In this document: piece after piece, positions 2,156 to 11,694 of the stretch
How the letters are laid out: each line of letters opens with the position of its first letter
How positions within the stretch are numbered: the first letter of the stretch is position 1
Source of the DNA: Armatimonadota bacterium
Lineage (GTDB): Bacteria; Armatimonadota; Fimbriimonadia; Fimbriimonadales; ATM1
Length of the DNA: 64,000 nucleotides
Assembly: GCA_003577165.1 (NCBI GenBank)
Contig: QEUM01000004.1
Location: forward strand, 310,001 to 374,000
Direction of reading: 5' to 3'
The notes under the pieces: generated by a model
Told to the model about the DNA's origin: nothing
The model's input: the letters and a program-made list of their open reading frames with translations, nothing else
Database searches by the model: none
Made by a program: the position numbers and the translations under genes

Positions 2156-4255
2156 TCAGCGCAATCGCAACAAACGCAGCCCATTTCCAACGACGACTAG
2201 GCTCGCACCCATGTCGGCAAAGACGGCCATCCAGAGCGTGGCAAGGCCCGACAGCGCCAGGCCGAAAAAGACGGCTTTGATCCCGAGCGCGATGACGATG
2301 TTCTGAGTGAGAACCGCGGCGGTCTTGCGGCTCAGGCGCAGGAACTCCGGCACTTTGCGAAGGTCGTCTTCCATCAGCGCCACGTCGGCGGTCTCGAGCG
2401 CGGTGTCGGTTCCCGCCGCGCCCATCGCGAAGCCGATTTCCGCTTTGGCGAGCGCCGGAGCGTCGTTCACCCCATCCCCGACCATGCCGACGTGGCCGCG
2501 CTGCTCTTGAAGCTCCTCCACAGAACGAAGCTTGTCTTCGGGTGAAAGCTCGGCACGGACTTCGTCGATGCCCGCTTCGTGAGCGATCTTTCGAGCGGTG
2601 GCCTCATTATCCCCGGTCAGCATGAGAGTCGTCAGGCCCAGCGAGTGCAGATCGCGAAGAGCTTGAACGCTGGATTCCCGCAAGGTGTCGGCCACGCCAA
2701 AGACCGCCAGCGCCTCCTTTTCGTCCGTGAGGACGATCGCCGTCTTTCCCTGATCTTGGAGGGCATAAAGCACGTCGTGAACATGGTCGCAGCAAACGCT
2801 TTTTCCCTCGGCGAGCTTGTGGTTGCCGACGAAGTAGGTCTTTCCCTCGATCTTGCCCTGCACACCCTTGCCGAAGAGTGAACGGAAGGCTTCGACCGGA
2901 AGCCGCTCGCCTTGCCAGTATTGGGATATGGCGCGCGCGACGGGGTGGTCGGTGTGCGCATCGAGGCTGGCGGCGATTTGCTTCGAGCGCTCCTCTTCGC
3001 GATCGTGCAAAGCATGGAAGTCTGTAACCTTCGGCTTGCCTTCAGTGAGAGTGCCCGTCTTGTCGAGCGCGATAACCCGGAGCTTTCGGCCGTTTTCCAG
3101 GTGAACGCCTCCCTTGATGAGGATTCCCCGGCGAGCCGCCGAGGCAAGACCGCTGACCACGGTCACTGGGGTCGAAATCACCAGCGCGCAGGGGCAGGCG
3201 ATCACGAGCAGCACGAGCGCTTTGTAGAGCCACGGCAGGAACGGCTGCGCCAAGATCAACGGGAGGGCGACCGCAACAAGCAGGGCCAGCACCACCACGA
3301 TGGGCGTGTAGACCTTGGCAAAGGAATCGACAAACCTCTGGGTCGGCGCTCGGGAAGCCTGCGCCTCCTGGACCGTTCGGATGATCCGGTCAAGGGTCGT
3401 GTTTCCCCGGTTTCCCGTCACGGTGAATTCCAGCACCCCCTCGTGGTTGATCGTCCCCGCGAACACCTTGTCTCCGGGCTTCTTCTCGACCGGCACGCTC
3501 TCGCCGGTTATCGGCGCCTGATCCACCGTGCTCTGGCCACTCGTCACTTCGCCATCGAAGGGCAAACGGTCTCCGGGCCGAACGCGAACGATTGCGCCAA
3601 CCTGGACCGAAGCGGCATCAGTCTCCACCCAGTTCCCCGAGGCGTTGCGAACGAAAGCACGGTCCGGCGCCATCGCCATCAGACCCCGGATCGCGTTGCG
3701 GGCGCGGTCCAGCGAGAATCCCTCGATCAGCTCCGCGGTCTCGAAGAGCACGATCACGACCGCCGCTTCGGGCCACTCTCCGATCGCCATCGCGCCGACC
3801 ACCGCGATTGTCATCAGGAAGTTGATGTTGAGGGTGAGCGTTCGAAGGGCGACGATCCCCTTGCGAAACGCCTTGAGCCCGCCCAGCAGCACCGCCGAGA
3901 CCGCGAGCGCGATCACGTACCACGCGCCTTCGTTTCCCCCCGCAAAGGCGGCGATCTCGCTGGAGAGGGCAAGGGCCAGCGCGATGCCGACCCGCCAGCG
4001 CTCCCTTCGCCCCAGGCCCTGGGCCATCTCCTCGCTCGGCGTCTCGGGCAGGGCCTCGCTCGGGGCCATCCCGATCTGCTTGAGAGCCGCGATGAGGGGC
4101 GCGTTGTCCGGGAAGCGGTGGGAGACGGTGAGGCGGCGGTTCATCAGGTCGAAGCCCAGGCTCTCGACCTCCTTCACGCCCTTGAAGCGGTTGCGGATGA
4201 TCTGCTCCTCGGTGGGGCAGTCCATGGCCTCGATGGTGAAGGTGCTTTTCGTCAA
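2156..4255 (-). CDS. cadA: P1B-type Cd/Zn/Pb-exporting ATPase
   Basis: The 699-residue protein would pump divalent soft metals out of the cytoplasm using ATP. It has an N-terminal HMA domain (residues 4-64) with MDCPTEE (Cys13) instead of the two-Cys GxxCxxC motif, then membrane helices, TGES in the actuator domain (251-254), CPC at 354-356 in the transport helix, the phosphorylated Asp398 in DKTGT, HP at 437-438 and GDGVND near 600. CPC plus this HMA type points to the ZntA/CadA group rather than the copper group. The start is TTG: an in-frame TAG lies three codons upstream and AGGAAG precedes it by 9 nt. It is the last gene of the island cluster, 120 bp after the ABM gene; TTGACC with a TATCGC-like box 20 bp later in that gap could be a separate promoter. 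Zn versus Cd versus Pb cannot be resolved. Confidence 0.92.
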   Translation of the reverse strand: MTKSTFTIEAMDCPTEEQIIRNRFKGVKEVESLGFDLMNRRLTVSHRFPDNAPLIAALKQIGMAPSEALPETPSEEMAQGLGRRERWRVGIALALALSSEIAAFAGGNEGAWYVIALAVSAVLLGGLKAFRKGIVALRTLTLNINFLMTIAVVGAMAIGEWPEAAVVIVLFETAELIEGFSLDRARNAIRGLMAMAPDRAFVRNASGNWVETDAASVQVGAIVRVRPGDRLPFDGEVTSGQSTVDQAPITGESVPVEKKPGDKVFAGTINHEGVLEFTVTGNRGNTTLDRIIRTVQEAQASRAPTQRFVDSFAKVYTPIVVVLALLVAVALPLILAQPFLPWLYKALVLLVIACPCALVISTPVTVVSGLASAARRGILIKGGVHLENGRKLRVIALDKTGTLTEGKPKVTDFHALHDREEERSKQIAASLDAHTDHPVARAISQYWQGERLPVEAFRSLFGKGVQGKIEGKTYFVGNHKLAEGKSVCCDHVHDVLYALQDQGKTAIVLTDEKEALAVFGVADTLRESSVQALRDLHSLGLTTLMLTGDNEATARKIAHEAGIDEVRAELSPEDKLRSVEELQEQRGHVGMVGDGVNDAPALAKAEIGFAMGAAGTDTALETADVALMEDDLRKVPEFLRLSRKTAAVLTQNIVIALGIKAVFFGLALSGLATLWMAVFADMGASLVVVGNGLRLLRLR

Positions 4256-4375: not shown

Positions 4376-4795
4376 TCATTTTGCGACCACTTCATAGACT
4401 CGGAAACTCGAAGTCATCGGCGGCTCCTTGCCCTCCGCCTTCGCCTTCCGGACATCCTCGAAGCCGCGCTGGTGGCCCTCCAGGAACTCGGGGGAGCCGG
4501 TCCAGGCGTCAAAGTCCTTCTTTCGCCGCCAGTAGCTGACGATGAGGTAGGCGCCTTCGACATCCCCTGCTTGGACGGCTCCCTTGGGCGCTCGCTTGGG
4601 GCGCCTGGGCTTGCCCTCCGGCCTCAGGACCTGCATCCCGCAGAAGCCGGGCATGCGGTCGATGGCGTGGGCGCGCGTGGCGAAGAGCTCCTCAAACCGC
4701 TCCCGATACTCGGGTTTGCAGGTGATATAGTTCACCGCCACGAACGCCGCATCCAGCGGGCAGCCCGTTTCGGCAATCCCATGTTGTTCGGTCAT
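4376..4795 (-). CDS. ABM-fold (HmoA/IsdG-like) monooxygenase-family protein
   Basis: The 139-residue protein fits the antibiotic-biosynthesis-monooxygenase fold (dimeric alpha+beta barrel). The core runs from FVAVNYITCKPEYRERFEE (about 18-36) through MPGFCGMQVL (48-57) to YLIVSYWRRKKDFDAW (84-99). Relatives include heme-degrading HmoA/IsdG enzymes and many proteins of unknown reaction. There is no signal peptide, so it is cytoplasmic. Its ATG overlaps the TGA of the PII-like gene (ATGA), implying coupled translation within the metal-efflux operon. A heme or metal-stress role is suggested by context only. Confidence 0.75.
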   Translation of the reverse strand: MTEQHGIAETGCPLDAAFVAVNYITCKPEYRERFEELFATRAHAIDRMPGFCGMQVLRPEGKPRRPKRAPKGAVQAGDVEGAYLIVSYWRRKKDFDAWTGSPEFLEGHQRGFEDVRKAKAEGKEPPMTSSFRVYEVVAK

Positions 4796-5103
4796 CGTGC
4801 TTCTTCTCCCCTTTCCCCTGTCCGGATCACGACGCTGTCTTCGATCGGGATGATGAAGATCCGTCCATCGCCGGGCTGGCCCGTTTGCGCGCCGCTCTGA
4901 ATTGCCTGCACAACCGCCTCCACCAAGGCGTCGGGGACCATCAGCTCGAGCTTTGCCATCGTCGCGGTTTCATAGAATCCCGGAACGACGTTTGTGACCT
5001 TCGCTTCTGCAGTCACGACGGACGGCAAGTTTCCGATATCGTGCAGGTTGTGGAAAACCTGGTCCAGCTTGTGAGGCTGTACTACCGCTTTGACCTCTTT
5101 CAT
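4792..5103 (-). CDS. PII-like signalling protein of the PII-NG group
   Basis: The 103-residue protein has the PII ferredoxin-like layout: a first strand MKEVKAVVQPHKLDQV, a central loop region at about 36-55, and a C-terminal GDGRIFIIPIEDSVVIRTGE. The T-loop lacks the Tyr51 uridylylation context of classic GlnB. PII-NG proteins are known to be encoded beside CusA/CzcA pumps, exactly as here. It probably senses a nucleotide or metal and modulates the transporter, but its ligand is unknown. ATGA overlaps join it to czcA upstream and to the ABM gene downstream. Confidence 0.85.
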   Translation of the reverse strand: MKEVKAVVQPHKLDQVFHNLHDIGNLPSVVTAEAKVTNVVPGFYETATMAKLELMVPDALVEAVVQAIQSGAQTGQPGDGRIFIIPIEDSVVIRTGERGEEAR

Positions 5104-8100
5104 ACATTCGCTCCTTCAGTAGCCTCCGCCACAGCTTCGGGACCCGGCCGCTCTCGCTCGAACCACGTGTACAGCACGGGCACGATGACCAGCGTCAGCA
5201 GCGTGGCGGAGGCGATTCCACCGATGACAACCGTCGCCAGCGGACGCTGGACCTCCGCGCCGATGTCCGTGTTCAGCGCCATGGGCACGAAGCCGAGCGC
5301 CGCCACAAGCGCGGTCATCAGAACGGGCCGCAGCTTCTCCATCGCACCTTGTCGAACTGCATCTCTGACGGACAGCCCAAAGTCCTCGCGCAGACGATTG
5401 ATTGCCGAAACCATCACAACGCCATGGAGCACTGCCACGCCCGACAGCGCGATGAATCCCACGCCTGCGGAGATAGAAAAGGGCAAGCCCCGAAGAGCCA
5501 GAGCGAAGACGCCTCCCGTGATCGCCAGGGGCACCCCCGTGTAGATCAGCAACGTCTGCTTCATCGAGCCGAAGTTCATGAACAGGATGAGGAAGATCAG
5601 CCCGAGCGCCGCTGGGACCACGATCATCAGCCGCTGGCTCGCCTTCTGGAGGTTTTCGAACTGCCCGCCCCAGGTGAGGTAGTACCCTTCGGGAAGCTTG
5701 ACCTGCTTCTGGATGGCAGCCTGCGCCTTGGCGACGAAGGTGCCCATGTCCGTGCCGCGAACATTGAGCTGCACGACGACGCGGCGCTTGCCCGACTCCC
5801 GGCTGATCTGCGCGGGGGCAGGCTTGTTGTCGATATGTGCCAGGGCGAAGAGCGGGACGCTTTCGCCGTTGCTCGCCTTGATCGGAAGGCTGGCGATCGC
5901 CTCGGGATCATTGCGAAGCTCCTCGGGAAGGCGCACAACGAGGGCGAACCGCTTGTCACCCTCGATGATCTGCCCGATCTCCTCGCCTCCCAAAGCCGAG
6001 CTGACGAGCTCTTGGACTTCGCTGATGCTCACCCCGTAGCGCGCGATGGCTTCGCGGTCAATATCGAACTGGAGGACCGGGATCGGCTCGACCTGCTCGA
6101 CCTCCACATCCCTTGCGCCAGGCAGCGCGCGAACGACCGCTGCAATTTCGTCCGCTTTCTGCTTGAGCACGTCCAAGTCCTCGCCGAAGACTTTGATGCC
6201 GATGTCGGCCTTGACGCCGGACACGAGCTCAGAGAATCGCATTTCGATAGGCTGGGAGAAGTTGTAGCCCTGGCCGGGAACTTCGGAGAGCTTCCCCTCG
6301 ATTTCCTCTTGGATTTTGTCTTTCGTGATCCCTGGCCGCCATTGGCCCCGCTCTTTGAGCATGATGAAGGAGTCGGTCAGACTGATAGGCATCGGGTCGG
6401 TAGCGACCTCGGGCGTGCCGCTTCGCGAAAACATGGTGATCACCTCGGGGACTTCTTTCACCTTCTTCTCGGCTGCCGTTACGAGCCGTACGGTTTCCTC
6501 GGCGTTCACCGTGCGAGCACGGATGGGCTGAACGACAAGGTCGCCTTCATCGAGAGTGGGAATGAACTCCGACCCGAGCCGAGTAAACACAAGACCTGCC
6601 ACCGCCAGAACCAGAAGAGACCCAGCCACGACCGGACCTCGATACCGCAGGACAAAGTCGAGCGTCGGCCGATATAGCTTGGAGAAGAATCCCATGACCG
6701 GGTTGTTCTTTTCCTTCGTATCGCCGGACAGCACCAGGCTCGCGAGCGTAGGCACGAGCGTCAAGGTGAGCAGCAGCGCTCCAATGAGGCAGAAGGCCAC
6801 CGTCCAGGCCATCGGCTTGAACATCTTGCCTTCGGTCCCTTCGAGCGCGAGAATCGGCAGATAGACGACCGTGATGATCGTCAGCGCGGTCAGAGTCGGC
6901 TTGGCGACTTCTCGCGAAGCCTCCAGGGTGGTTTGCCGCACCTCTTCTCGGCTCAGCCTCCGGCCCTCATGCTCCCGGCGCTCAGCCAGGCGGCGCACAG
7001 CGTTTTCGATCATGAACACCGCGCCGTCCACGATCAGCCCGAAGTCGATTGCACCCAGGCTCATGAGGTTGCCCGAAATGCCGTAGGTGGTCATCAAGGA
7101 GAACCCGAACAGCATGGAGAGGGGAATGACCAGCGCCGCCAGGAGCGCCCCGCGCAGGTTGCCGAGCAGCACCAGGAGCACGAAAATGACCAGCGCTCCA
7201 CCCTCAAGCAAGTTCTTCTGAACCGTGCTGACCGTTTTGTTCACAAGGATGGAGCGGTTGTAGACCGTCGTCAGCTTCACATCCTCCGGGAGCTGCGCCT
7301 TGATCTCTCCGATTCGCTTGTCGACCGCCTCCGAGACCGTCCGCCCGTTCGCGCCCTTGAGCATCATGGCGATCGCGACCATCGCCTGCTGCCCGTCCTT
7401 CGTGCTGAGGCCGGTGAGCACCGGCGTGCCCGTCGTCACGTCCGCCACATCGCGAACGAGCACCGGTGTGCCTTCCTCGGTCGTGATGGGGATCAGCTCG
7501 ATGTCGGCGGCCTTCGTGGCCATGCCGACCGAGCGGATCAAGACCCTTTCGCCGCCGCTGTCGACCACCCCGCCGCCCGCGTTCTGGTTGTTGTTCTGAA
7601 GGGCCTCGATCAGGTCGTGCACCCCGAGGCCCCGCGCCTGGAGCCGCATCGGGTCGGCAACCACCTGATACTGCTTCACGTTTCCATCCGCGACGTTGAC
7701 TTCCGCCACGCCGGGAACGGTCCTCACCTGGGGCGCGATCTGCCAGTCCATGATCGCGCGAAGCTCAGTGATTTCTCGCTTGTCGCTCTCGATGGAGAAC
7801 ATGTAGATGTCGCCCAGACCCGTGGAGACTGGCCCCATCTGCGGCGCCTCGACGCTGGAGGGCAGGACCTCGCGCACGTTGCCAAGCCGCTCGTTCACAA
7901 GCTGCCGCGCAAAGAAGATGTCCACGTGGTCCCCGAATGTCACGGTCACCTGGGAGAGGCCGTACTGGCTGAGCGAGCGCACGCCCTCGACGCCCGGGAG
8001 GCCGCCCATCGCGGTCTCAATGGGGAAGGTGACGAGCCGCTCGACTTCCTCCGGCCCCATGCCGCCGGTCTCGGTGTTGATCTGCACCTGGTTGGTCGTG

Positions 8101-8225
8101 ATGTCGGGCACGGCGTCGAGGTTGAGCCGGGTCCACGACACGGCCCCCCAGATCGCCAGCGCGATCGCGCCGAGGATGACGAGGAGCCTCTGTGTGAGGC
8201 TGAAGTGAAGCACTTTGTCCAGCAT
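5100..8225 (-). CDS. czcA: CzcA-type RND heavy-metal efflux pump
   Basis: The 1041-residue inner-membrane proton/metal antiporter is full length for the HME-RND family. It has an N-terminal helix, two large periplasmic loops and twelve expected membrane spans. The fourth span carries DFGLIVDGAVFMIEN (near residue 400); its Asp residues are the proton-relay and class signature of the Co/Zn/Cd (CzcA) group, distinct from the Ala-rich CusA motif. It would work with CzcB and CzcC to expel divalent cations across both membranes. Its ATG overlaps the czcB stop (TGATG), and its own stop overlaps the PII-NG start. Confidence 0.96.
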   Translation of the reverse strand: MLDKVLHFSLTQRLLVILGAIALAIWGAVSWTRLNLDAVPDITTNQVQINTETGGMGPEEVERLVTFPIETAMGGLPGVEGVRSLSQYGLSQVTVTFGDHVDIFFARQLVNERLGNVREVLPSSVEAPQMGPVSTGLGDIYMFSIESDKREITELRAIMDWQIAPQVRTVPGVAEVNVADGNVKQYQVVADPMRLQARGLGVHDLIEALQNNNQNAGGGVVDSGGERVLIRSVGMATKAADIELIPITTEEGTPVLVRDVADVTTGTPVLTGLSTKDGQQAMVAIAMMLKGANGRTVSEAVDKRIGEIKAQLPEDVKLTTVYNRSILVNKTVSTVQKNLLEGGALVIFVLLVLLGNLRGALLAALVIPLSMLFGFSLMTTYGISGNLMSLGAIDFGLIVDGAVFMIENAVRRLAERREHEGRRLSREEVRQTTLEASREVAKPTLTALTIITVVYLPILALEGTEGKMFKPMAWTVAFCLIGALLLTLTLVPTLASLVLSGDTKEKNNPVMGFFSKLYRPTLDFVLRYRGPVVAGSLLVLAVAGLVFTRLGSEFIPTLDEGDLVVQPIRARTVNAEETVRLVTAAEKKVKEVPEVITMFSRSGTPEVATDPMPISLTDSFIMLKERGQWRPGITKDKIQEEIEGKLSEVPGQGYNFSQPIEMRFSELVSGVKADIGIKVFGEDLDVLKQKADEIAAVVRALPGARDVEVEQVEPIPVLQFDIDREAIARYGVSISEVQELVSSALGGEEIGQIIEGDKRFALVVRLPEELRNDPEAIASLPIKASNGESVPLFALAHIDNKPAPAQISRESGKRRVVVQLNVRGTDMGTFVAKAQAAIQKQVKLPEGYYLTWGGQFENLQKASQRLMIVVPAALGLIFLILFMNFGSMKQTLLIYTGVPLAITGGVFALALRGLPFSISAGVGFIALSGVAVLHGVVMVSAINRLREDFGLSVRDAVRQGAMEKLRPVLMTALVAALGFVPMALNTDIGAEVQRPLATVVIGGIASATLLTLVIVPVLYTWFERERPGPEAVAEATEGANV

Positions 8226-9784
8226 CAGTCTTCATGCCCCTTGAGCTCGCTCTTGATCTTCTCGCTCTTGAGAACGAACGCGCCTTTGACGACCACCTTC
8301 GCGCCCTCCTCCAAGCCGGAGAGGACCTCGACATAGTCGCCTTGGGTCCGCCCAAGCTCGACGAGCTTCTCCTCATACTTGCCTCCGTCTTCCGCGACGA
8401 AAAGCAGCCTGCGGTCGCCGTCCTCGACGATGGCGCTGCGGCGAACGGCGAGCACGGTGTCGCTGCGGCCGACGCCCAGCGAGACGGTGGCGAACATGTC
8501 CGCCCGGAGCGAGCCGTCCGCGTTGTCCACGAGTACCTGCACGGGCATGGTCCGGGTCTTGGGGTCGAGCCGGCTGCCGACCACTTGCACCACGCCGGCG
8601 AAGACGCGGCCGGGAAAGGCCTTGACGGCGATCTGCGCGGGGGCGCCCTTTCTCGCCTTGCCGATTTCCTTCTCCGGCACGCTTGCGGTGACCCAAACAG
8701 AGCGCAGGTTCTCGATGTGGCAGATCTCGGACGTCCGCTCGAGCGCTTGACCGAGCGTGGCGTCCACGTCCGTCACCACCCCGCCGATGGGAGCGGCCAC
8801 GGTCACGGCCCCACCTGAAGCCCGGCTGCCGCCGGAGAGAGCCGCGTAGCCGGCCCTGGCGGCTTGAAGTCCCTTCCGGGCGCCCTTTTCGGAAGCCAGA
8901 GCCGATTGGTGCTTGATCCTCGACTGCACAACGGCAATCTCGGCGGAGCGGACATCGGCCTCGGCGGTCTGGATCTCCTTGGAGTTCATCAGGTTGCGCT
9001 CGGCAATGGCCTTCTCGCGGTCGAATGCAGCCTTGGCGATTTCGATCTGGCGCTTGGCCTTGTCCTGGCGGAGCTTGTCCTTTTGAACTTCGAGCCGGGC
9101 TTCTTCCAGCTCGCTTCGGGAGATGAGCTCTTGCTTGAAGAGGCGCTCGGCCCGTTCCAGCTGGGCCTGGTGCACGACATGCTCTTGAATCGCCTCCTCC
9201 AGCTCTGTCTCCGCTTCGTTGAGGTCTTTCTGAGCTTGCTGGAGCGACGGCTGGCTAAAGGCGCCCGTGCTGGCGAACTGCTTCTGTCGCTCCAATGAAG
9301 CTTGAGCTGTCTTCTGCGCGGATTTTGAGAGCTCAAGTTCGGCGAGCGCTTCGCGCACGGATGCCTGAGCGCTCGACAAGTCCCGCTCGGCCTCGATGAT
9401 GTCCGCCCAGGCTCCGGCAAGCTCGGACGACTGGAGCGTGGCGATCGGCTGGCCGGCAGCCACCCGGTCTCCTGCTTGAACGAAGAGGCGGACGACCTTG
9501 CCAGCTACGGGCGGAGTTACGACCGCCTTGCCCCGGGCGGTGTTGGTCACCACTCCCGGCACTTTCAGCTCGCCCTGCATCGTCATGCGCCGGGACTCTT
9601 CTATTTCGATCCCGGCGATCTTGGCGGCCTCGGCAGTAAGGATGATGTCTTGGGCGTGGCCCTCGCCTGCATGTGCCGCTTCGCCGGCGTGGCCCTCCTC
9701 TGACTGCGGGGCGTCTTGCTTGCCGCAACCGGACAAGAGGAGCATCGAGGCCCCGATGAGAAACGAGAATTGGCTCCGCTTCAC
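8225..9784 (-). CDS. czcB: CzcB-type periplasmic adaptor lipoprotein
   Basis: The 519-residue membrane-fusion protein links CzcA to CzcC. A lipobox LLSGC puts the lipidated Cys at residue 20. A His/Glu-rich stretch follows (about 28-45, four repeats of the type GHA), a likely metal-binding segment. A biotinyl-lipoyl half (VTPPVAGKVVRL) is interrupted by a very long coiled-coil hairpin (about 130-300), then the second half (VAAPIGGVVTDVDATLG) and a beta-barrel domain. The start is GTG, sharing GTGA with the czcC stop. The hairpin is longer than in typical CzcB, which may reflect a thick periplasm. Confidence 0.93.
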   Translation of the reverse strand: MKRSQFSFLIGASMLLLSGCGKQDAPQSEEGHAGEAAHAGEGHAQDIILTAEAAKIAGIEIEESRRMTMQGELKVPGVVTNTARGKAVVTPPVAGKVVRLFVQAGDRVAAGQPIATLQSSELAGAWADIIEAERDLSSAQASVREALAELELSKSAQKTAQASLERQKQFASTGAFSQPSLQQAQKDLNEAETELEEAIQEHVVHQAQLERAERLFKQELISRSELEEARLEVQKDKLRQDKAKRQIEIAKAAFDREKAIAERNLMNSKEIQTAEADVRSAEIAVVQSRIKHQSALASEKGARKGLQAARAGYAALSGGSRASGGAVTVAAPIGGVVTDVDATLGQALERTSEICHIENLRSVWVTASVPEKEIGKARKGAPAQIAVKAFPGRVFAGVVQVVGSRLDPKTRTMPVQVLVDNADGSLRADMFATVSLGVGRSDTVLAVRRSAIVEDGDRRLLFVAEDGGKYEEKLVELGRTQGDYVEVLSGLEEGAKVVVKGAFVLKSEKIKSELKGHED

Positions 9785-10989
9785 TTGCCCACCTCCAAGA
9801 TGGTCCCGCTAGCTTTGAGGTATGCGGCTTGTGCTGAAGCCAGGTGAAGCCGCGCTTCGACATAGCCTTCCTCGAGCTCCCGCAAAGCACGGGTTGCCTC
9901 TAACAGCTCGATGAGCGTGACCGCCCGATCGACGAAGCCTTGGCGCGACTTGTCGACCAGCGACCGAGCATCGGTAACGACTTGTCCATACCGCGCGACC
10001 TGTTCTTGCGCAGATTCGAGCTCTATCTGTGCGGCCAGAAGCTCCGACTCGGCGATCCGTGTTGCATCGGCTAACGCTCTCTCTGCAGCCTCGGCACGCA
10101 TGCGAGCCGCTGCCGTCTCCGATCTTGACTTTCCGAAGTCGTAGAGCGGGATGGCGAGTTGGACCCGAATCCCGTACTGACGGTGGGAATCGTGCCAGGA
10201 GGTCTGCCTTCCGTGCACCTCCAGCTCGGGCTTGCTTCCGAGGTTCGCAACCCTGGATTCGGCTTGCGCGAGCTGAATGTCGGCCGCGAGAAGGCGAAGG
10301 TCGGCGCGCCGGGTTTTCAAAACGGCAGGATCTACCATCCCGACGTTCAGCGTTGCGAAATCGCTGATGGCGATTTGCTCGGGAGAAAGGCCAAGGATGC
10401 CGGCCAGACGTCGAACACTCGACTGAAACTCGGCGGTCCGCCGCTGGAACGTGAGCTTTGCGCGCTCCAATTCGATGGCGACGCGAGATAGTTGGACCCC
10501 GGGCAGCTTTCCCTCGGCAACCAGCACTTTGACCGCATCGTGAAGCCTCTGTGCAAGCTCCATGAGCTGTCCTGCGTTGTCGGCGAGCGCTTTGGCCGAC
10601 GCCGCTTCGCTGTAGCCGGCGATGACCTCGTACTGGATCTCGGCAAGGACCTGCGCCAGTTCCGACTCGGCTCTCAGGATCTCTGCGCTCCCAACCGCTC
10701 TGGCGGCGGCAGCGCGTCCGAAGATGTCGATGGGCTGAACCAGGACCAAGTCATCGTCGATGCCGCCGACCTCCTCTCTGTCCGTGTGGCCGACGAAGAG
10801 CTTAGTTGTGGGATAGGCGCCGAGGCCCCGCCGTGAAAGGCGAGCGCTGCTCACGCGCATCTGGGCCGCCACGATGGCGGGCCGGTTCTCCCGCGCGCTT
10901 CGCAACGCTTGTTCCAATGTGATGGGCTGTTGGGCTTGCGCCGTTGCCGCCAAAGGCGACAGGCAAAGGATCGTCAAGATTGATTTCAA
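9781..10989 (-). CDS. czcC: CzcC-type outer-membrane efflux protein (TolC family)
   Basis: The 402-residue protein has a signal peptide ending near AQAQQ (residues 1-20) and two OEP repeats rich in long amphipathic helices (for example ITLEQALRSARENRPAIVAAQ, and AIPLYDFGKSRSETAAARMR in the second half). It would form the outer-membrane duct for the CzcA-CzcB pump. The start is TTG; GGAG lies 5 nt before it and no better start is present. It follows the Cys-rich exported protein gene by 48 bp. Confidence 0.9.
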   Translation of the reverse strand: MKSILTILCLSPLAATAQAQQPITLEQALRSARENRPAIVAAQMRVSSARLSRRGLGAYPTTKLFVGHTDREEVGGIDDDLVLVQPIDIFGRAAAARAVGSAEILRAESELAQVLAEIQYEVIAGYSEAASAKALADNAGQLMELAQRLHDAVKVLVAEGKLPGVQLSRVAIELERAKLTFQRRTAEFQSSVRRLAGILGLSPEQIAISDFATLNVGMVDPAVLKTRRADLRLLAADIQLAQAESRVANLGSKPELEVHGRQTSWHDSHRQYGIRVQLAIPLYDFGKSRSETAAARMRAEAAERALADATRIAESELLAAQIELESAQEQVARYGQVVTDARSLVDKSRQGFVDRAVTLIELLEATRALRELEEGYVEARLHLASAQAAYLKASGTILEVGK

Positions 10990-11037: not shown

Positions 11038-11457
11038 CTAATTCAACTGGAAAGGAGGCGCGCGGGAGGGGACGGGAAGCGGGGGCGCGTTTGGGAGCGA
11101 TCGCTGAACGTGAACAGAAAACGGCTCCGGCTCGAATGACGAAGTCGCTTCCACATGCGCGACGTCGCCAGGCAAGCAAAGATCGATCTGAACGACCCCT
11201 GCGACCCTGAGCGCCGCTTGCGGATGCTTGTCCTCGCAGGAACTGAGGCTGCAGCACGCTCTGCAGTCCTGCGCGGCTTTCGCGCTGACCTCCACCGTGG
11301 CCTTGACTTTTGAAGTCACAGTCATCTCTGGAGGGCAGGGCAGAGTTGGGCAGGTGCCGCACGCCTTGCCATTCGGCAAAAACCATACCGTCCAGCAGGC
11401 ATGTGCCTGCCCGGCCAGGATCGCCGCGATGAGAAGCGCCGCGCGCAAGTGCCTCAC
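11038..11457 (-). CDS. Cys-rich exported protein, first gene of the metal operon
   Basis: I do not recognise this 139-residue protein. It has a clear Sec signal peptide (MRHLRAALLIAAILAGQAHA, cut after residue 20). The mature part holds about eight cysteines, including ACGTCPTLPCPP (33-44) and RACCSLSSC (about 65-74), then a Pro-rich tail. As the first gene before czcCBA it is a candidate periplasmic metal-binding or metal-sensing protein. The GTG start lies 8 nt after a TATAAT box, so the operon mRNA appears leaderless. Metal binding is inferred from Cys content and context. Confidence 0.8.
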   Translation of the reverse strand: MRHLRAALLIAAILAGQAHACWTVWFLPNGKACGTCPTLPCPPEMTVTSKVKATVEVSAKAAQDCRACCSLSSCEDKHPQAALRVAGVVQIDLCLPGDVAHVEATSSFEPEPFSVHVQRSLPNAPPLPVPSRAPPFQLN

Positions 11458-11471: not shown

Positions 11472-11618
11472 CAAGTCCGTGCGGAATGGTGTTGCAACAT
11501 TGGTGCGGATGTGCCGGCGTTTCACCCGAAACCAGCCTCCGCAGGCTCGACCCGCACTCCTCGCGTTTAGGAACCAATTTTAGGAACCTTGGGCGATGTC
11601 CGTGAGCTCGGCTGATCT

Positions 11619-11694
11619 TGGTGGAGATGATGGGATTCGAACCCACGACCTCTGCAGTGCGATTGCAGCGCTCTCCCAGCTGAGCTACATCCCC
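11619..11694 (-). tRNA. tRNA-Ala (CGC)
   Basis: The 76-nt tRNA folds completely: acceptor GGGGATG/CATCTCC with the alanine identity pair G3-U70, D stem GCTC/GAGC, anticodon stem CTGCA/TGCAG with loop ATCGCAC (anticodon CGC), T arm GTGGG-TTCGAAT-CCCAT, discriminator A and encoded CCA. TACAAT lies upstream as its -10. Its 3' half is duplicated at 1966-2010, marking it as the integration target of the metal island. Confidence 0.97.

Follow-up and report, generated by a model that had tools for sequence, protein, structure and literature searches.

The metal-export operon in the window, by which we mean the whole 64,000-nucleotide stretch of an Armatimonadota genome that was analysed here, is best explained as an islet of about 9.7 kb anchored at a tRNA-Ala(CGC) gene, in which a PII-NG-like protein would be the known partner of the CzcA pump and an ABM-fold protein would be an accessory heme enzyme carried as cargo (probability roughly 0.6). 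An earlier note on this DNA had proposed that the PII-NG and ABM proteins form a signalling or heme/metal-stress pair serving both a CzcA pump and a P1B ATPase. The tRNA-derived repeats around the operon are a feature that it missed, and the link of ABM seems to run to the pump islet rather than to PII.

The operon lies on the minus strand and starts with a small Cys-rich, secreted-looking ORF with no convincing Pfam match (11038-11457), which is followed by czcC, encoding an outer-membrane efflux protein (9781-10989, PF02321), czcB, encoding a membrane fusion protein (8225-9784, PF16576/PF13437), and czcA, encoding an RND pump of the CusA/CzcA family (5100-8225, PF00873, ACR_tran, TIGR00914). 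Next come the genes for a PII-NG-like protein of 103 aa with a shortened T-loop (4792-5103, P-II, PF00543, E 2.5e-15) and for an IsdG/HmoA-like protein of the ABM fold (4376-4795, PF03992, E 1.5e-16, above the cut-off), and finally a cadA/zntA-like P1B ATPase gene with an HMA domain and a TTG start (2156-4255, PF00122 or E1-E2_ATPase, PF00403, TIGR01525, TIGR01512). The genes from czcC to ABM form one overlapping chain, with overlaps of 4 nt between czcC and czcB, 1 nt between czcB and czcA, and 4 nt (ATGA) at both the czcA/PII and the PII/ABM junctions; the ORFs and the sequence thus bear out the ATGA overlaps described earlier. The ATPase gene, which had been read as coupled to the same chain, is indeed present downstream, but it lies outside the translational chain because its start is 120 nt past the ABM stop. 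Among the NCBIfam models, the window CzcA scores above the CusA/CzcA cut-off, while the ATPase passes the general heavy-metal and the cadmium-family P-type models and falls under the ZntA equivalog cut-offs. Since czcCBA operons are found repeatedly in the class and cadA-type genes closely follow czc in 19 of 46 loci examined (and likewise in genome G046), this layout is not due to chance. The window operon resembles known operons of czcCBA with cadA/zntA in gene content, in gene order and in having a P1B ATPase beside the RND pump, but differs from them in the Cys-rich lead gene, in the PII-NG and ABM genes, and in being bounded by tRNA repeats. Scans for sigma-70 promoters (2 against 0.9 expected) and for terminators (5 against 8.3 expected) stayed near chance level. 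No Fur box was found within the islet when up to 4 mismatches were allowed, while one match occurred in a 20-kb control stretch; the missing Fur box counts against the main reading.

PII-NG proteins differ from GlnB and GlnK in the T-loop, and the group was reportedly named by Sant'Anna et al. in 2009. Aligned with one longer PII of a relative, the window protein has an 8-residue gap in the T-loop. With a three-row profile at E 1e-20, a threshold at which weaker PII proteins would be missed, short-T-loop PII proteins were found in 6 of 291 Armatimonadota genomes (G000, which is the window genome, G102, G082, G136, G151 and G120), and in all six the gene is the next one after czcA, so that the known association of PII-NG with a CzcA-type pump held throughout. 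The proposed pairing with ABM did not: the search for recurrence of the PII-NG/ABM adjacency in the 291 genomes returned the window only (1/6). By Pfam, the gene after PII encodes a cation-efflux (CDF) protein in G082 and G136 and an MFS protein in G151; in G120 it is cadA, directly overlapping, and in G102 the ORFs called next lie on the opposite strand, with cadA about 5 kb further on. A scan of genome contigs with the three-row PII-NG alignment gave three loci, of which one is a real PII-NG, that of G082. In 398 genomes from the phylum of a Sodalis-like endosymbiont (L102), the matches listed were longer PII of canonical length, which gives no firm indication about PII-NG there, and in a scan of plasmids the matches listed (30 of 87 records) were longer PII forms alone.

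A study on Geobacter sulfurreducens describes PII-NG as clustering with czcABC in an operon that is upregulated under cobalt and controlled by Fur (PMC7726332). The operon GSU2134-2137 is like that of the window in joining a PF00543 protein and a CzcA-type pump, but there PII-NG is the first gene, whereas in the window, which is from another phylum, PII-NG comes after czcA and is followed by ABM and the P1B ATPase. The window PII-NG, which is translationally coupled to czcA, is likely to be the known czcA partner and a regulator of the pump. A longer PII directly follows a CzcA-type gene in G119 (L109), with a cadA-type gene further on, and may be an intermediate linking canonical PII to PII-NG.

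ABM is a widespread gene, with orthologs in 58 of the 113 class genomes (E 1e-10) and in 71 of the 291 genomes of the phylum (profile, E 1e-15), and it lies inside a czc operon in five genomes: that of the window and G025, G027, G058 and G063. In the latter four, it is placed between czcB and czcA, and no PII was found in these czc-ABM operons. G058 and G063 carry a second ABM copy elsewhere, while the window ABM is the sole copy of the ortholog in its genome. The large distance of most ABM orthologs from czc genes weighs against the main reading. The 54 class copies outside czc with surroundings read include none in a czc operon, and have a same-strand neighbour within 30 nt in 6 cases and within 60 nt in 20. 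The closest to such a placement is G046, whose ABM lies outside the repeat-bounded islet, on the opposite strand and some 9 kb away from czcA; the gene of G020, counted as an ortholog but not one of these 54, lies by coordinates about 53 kb from the CzcA match of that genome. The Pfam scan of 92 neighbours of ABM gave 86 families, the commonest among the matches listed (25 of the 86 families) being PF01497 binding proteins (8) and PilM (6); 24 of 116 neighbours were left out, namely 8 czc proteins, 2 of G219 and 14 more, which were chiefly short ORFs and two additional PilM. A link to cobalamin was considered and left as a weak hint, as the eight PF01497 neighbours all belong to family f2 and to one cluster, and one of them resembles BtuF below the cut-off.

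In the czcA tree, the window groups with G102, whose czcA is 88% identical and whose ABM is on another contig, while G025, G027, G058 and G063 belong to a separate, supported clade that also holds G009 and G050, which lack ABM in the operon. The window ABM stood apart from the other czc ABMs in a first ABM tree; in a second, from which four long rows were removed (two of Thermus, G219 and G010), the five czc ABMs grouped together with a support of 33/80 and long branches. Neither ABM tree is taken as evidence; ABM may have entered czc islets either once or twice, a point that counts against the main reading.

The whole operon is enclosed by two direct repeats of 51 nt, 94% identical and 9653 nt apart (E 3.5e-17). 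The att-like copy 1 (11613-11663) overlaps the 3′ part of the anchoring tRNA-Ala(CGC) gene (11619-11694, minus strand, ARAGORN), and the att-like copy 2 (1960-2010) is a displaced tRNA-Ala 3′ end just beyond the end of cadA. A 39-base pattern of the tRNA-Ala 3′ end has two copies in the window genome with up to 2 mismatches. We assembled 47 czc loci, consisting of 45 of the class with an untruncated czcA that is at least 63% identical, and those of G120 and G136 from other classes; the set excludes weaker CzcA relatives and contig-edge fragments (e.g., G062, G081, G083, G093 and G100), and G046, missing from the counts on 46 loci, was added in the final ones. tRNA repeats flank 12 of these loci, with 44 testable on both sides; three of 46 loci could be tested on one side only, and certain flanks were short, at 74 to 1200 bases. 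Seven of the islets are at tRNA-Ala(CGC) (window, G003, G009, G025, G027, G058 and G063) and five at tRNA-Arg(CCT) (G013, G046, G047, G056 and G086), the repeats of the six sister tRNA-Ala loci being spaced by 6.7-9.2 kb.

The ABM gene is present in 5 of the 7 tRNA-Ala islets and in none of the 40 other czc loci (Fisher 1.4e-5). When the near-identical islets of G027, G058 and G063 (97.5-99.8% identical) are counted once, the difference is 3/5 against 0/40 (Fisher 7.0e-4), and when both tRNAs are pooled, it is 5/12 repeat-bounded loci against 0/32 (Fisher 7.3e-4); deeper kinship is uncorrected in all three. The near identity of three of the five ABM islets to one another counts against the main reading, as do the tRNA-Ala islets without ABM (G009 and G003) and the lack of ABM in all five tRNA-Arg islets.

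A tyrosine integrase gene lies just beyond a repeat in five of the six sister tRNA-Ala loci (G058, G027, G063, G009 and G003), each with a PF00589 match, and elsewhere in the genome in G025. The integrases of G058, G009 and G003, which represent three families of the order, share about 99% identity. In the window genome, no member of this integrase family was found (E 1e-40), and hence the window copy is called an islet and not an active element. In three other genomes, relatives of the gene beside the window tRNA lie on different contigs or a long way from the tRNA-Ala pattern, and no empty site in synteny was found; with neither such an integrase nor an empty site found, which are points against the main reading, integration in the window is read from the repeats only, and the islet may have been mobile in the past.

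A palindrome, AGGTTCAATTGAACCT, at the islet border (1951-1966) contains the word AGGTTCAA, which is common to the borders of sister islets, and is a possible integrase arm site. The AGGTTCAA/TTGAACCT word, chosen after some borders had been seen and counted over borders of which several are near copies, has 26 occurrences no more than 150 bases from one of 23 repeat copies, where the background of other sequence predicts 0.37; it is absent at 4 of the 23, including both G003 copies and the tRNA-side copy of the window. The count lends support to a shared integrase site but is no proof of one. The same AGGTTCAA border word was also seen in czc operons bounded by tRNA-Arg(CCT) (L202, L226, L231, L232 and G046).

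The tRNA-Ala 3′ pattern occurs, with up to 2 mismatches, in 50 of the 113 class genomes, once in 37 of them, and a control pattern in none. In G063, six copies stand in tandem within 90 kb, and G058 and G027 each have four within 50 kb. These arrays (G063 C1:2256134-2342461, G058 C1:575372-623573 and G027 C1:859826-908213) hold the czc islet, a module with another P1B ATPase (with YHS and HMBD domains, read in G058) and a 28-29 kb integrase module. Integrase-less, tRNA-anchored islets stacked at one att site are a known concept. The islets described here are like these in their tRNA 3′-end repeats, their tandem modules and the integrase in a neighbouring module of the sister arrays, and differ in occurring in Armatimonadota, in being very small and in having one metal operon as cargo.

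The best PDB match of the window ABM is TT1380 of T. thermophilus (1iuj, E 1.2e-15). In an alignment of 62 sequences (the window, 58 other class copies, one copy from another class and two of Thermus), Asn22, Trp98 and His108 are invariant (62/62). An Asn-Trp-His triad defines the IsdG-family heme oxygenases, and consists of N41, W100 and H110 in LFO1 (PMC5557675). The window ABM has a basic insertion of about 17 aa, rich in Arg, Lys and Pro (residues ~62-79, nt ~4558-4610), between two conserved halves; the 61 aligned relatives are without it, one having about five extra residues. With the insertion subtracted, the distances from Asn to Trp (59) and from Trp to His (10) equal those of LFO1 as given there. 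Hence, the protein is like IsdG, HmoB, MhuD and LFO1 in its ABM domain, its triad and the spacing of the triad, but differs from them in the basic insertion and in being encoded in a metal-export operon rather than in one for iron or heme uptake. Against the HmuQ model of NCBIfam it scores 36.7 bits, with a cut-off of 130, and the other heme-oxygenase models score lower, all under their cut-offs. This weighs against the main reading, and the protein is therefore not filed as HmuQ or IsdG itself; from the triad and its spacing, we infer an IsdG-type heme-degrading enzyme. ABM relatives were found in 34 plasmid records of Thermus, Deinococcus and Streptomyces. On pTB1 of Thermus brockianus, the relative is the first gene of a series that includes a hemin ABC transporter, the surroundings in T. 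thermophilus HB27 and Deinococcus ficus were uninformative, and no annotated czc gene was found near the ABM relatives at the three plasmid loci examined. The ABMs of two czcB-ABM-czcA islets (L068:8587-8958 and L073:4723-5097) have a Cys-rich N-terminal extension (CGC...C), which is absent from the other eight ABMs in the same alignment.

These observations bear on how ABM and its operon are to be understood. Were PII-NG and ABM a dedicated signalling pair controlling both pumps, as first suggested, the ATGA coupling of their genes would fit, and the insertion found in the window ABM but in none of its 61 relatives could be a docking loop. However, none of the five other PII-NG genes is followed by ABM, and in the four other czc-ABM operons, where ABM occupies another slot, no PII was detected, so that such a pair is very improbable. 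The part of this proposal that gave ABM a role in heme or metal stress has fared better, being in keeping with the Asn-Trp-His triad and with the link to the pump in five genomes, while its tie to PII has not stood. ABM might instead be a housekeeping gene that landed in the islet by chance, as a passenger that takes no part in metal defence. Its wide distribution, its varied neighbours and the single copy in the window genome would agree with this, but it sits in two different slots in different czcA lineages with tight operon joins, and G058 and G063 keep a second copy elsewhere; we regard a passenger role as unlikely.

It is unlikely, too, that ABM is something other than a heme enzyme, binding metal or oxidising another small molecule released in metal stress. 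The breadth of the family, the scores under the heme equivalog cut-offs and the Cys-rich N-terminus of the sister islet ABM speak for such a function; the invariance of the triad in all 62 sequences and the Thermus relative beside hemin uptake genes speak against it. The least probable alternative concerns the islet itself, which would be ordinary, vertically inherited chromosome with a chance tRNA fragment as the repeat. The window genome has no integrase of the family, and 32 of the 44 testable czc loci are without such repeats in the stretches read, but against it stand the E-value of a repeat that immediately flanks the operon, the like arrangement of 11 further czc loci at two tRNAs, and the sister genomes in which several copies follow one another.

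Under the preferred reading of a tRNA-anchored metal-export islet with ABM as cargo, the islet would have inserted at the 3′ end of tRNA-Ala(CGC). The CadA and CzcCBA families provide a two-step export path for divalent metals. CadA would lift the divalent metal from the cytoplasm to the periplasm, from where CzcCBA would carry it out of the cell, while PII-NG, coupled to czcA, would most likely sense the nucleotide or metal state of the cytoplasm and act on CzcA. Metals such as cobalt disturb the iron supply and enter porphyrins; the entry of cobalt into heme and iron shortage under cobalt stress are discussed for Geobacter in PMC7726332. ABM, made together with the pump, would then probably release heme iron, or clear away heme that is damaged or metal-substituted, during metal export, and may do so without the need for contact with PII. 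A broader proposal, which we put forward tentatively and hold to be somewhat less probable than its opposite, is that Armatimonadota have a tRNA-Ala(CGC) platform where small integrase-less metal islets move in tandem with an integrase module, and where an IsdG-type enzyme was recruited, perhaps twice, as recurrent cargo, the result being a single mobile unit for both expelling metal and repairing heme and iron damage, with PII-NG as an added regulator in the window copy.

If this is true, metal-resistance islets carry an enzyme for heme or iron salvage besides their pumps, and genetics could then test directly how strongly heme damage restricts growth in the presence of cobalt, zinc or cadmium. 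The earlier reading would be corrected in that the partner of ABM is the pump islet and not PII, and the tRNA-Ala arrays point to a platform for mobile elements in a little-studied phylum. Titles and abstract openings on genomic islands of Armatimonadota contained no description of such islets, which is not proof of absence. In the parts of the literature available, no link between ABM or heme-degrading enzymes and CzcA was found, one paper naming both in unrelated table rows and text, and reports of islands with a tRNA gene, an integrase, czcA and direct repeats concern other bacteria.

Two further observations concern the czc loci as a group. ORFs matching the Cys-rich lead gene of the window head 42 of 46 czc loci, and their product is possibly a periplasmic metal sensor or chaperone. 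The CzcA matches of L074, L075, L076, L082 and L098 each contain one internal stop; this is probably the stop codon of czcA, read through close to where the match ends.
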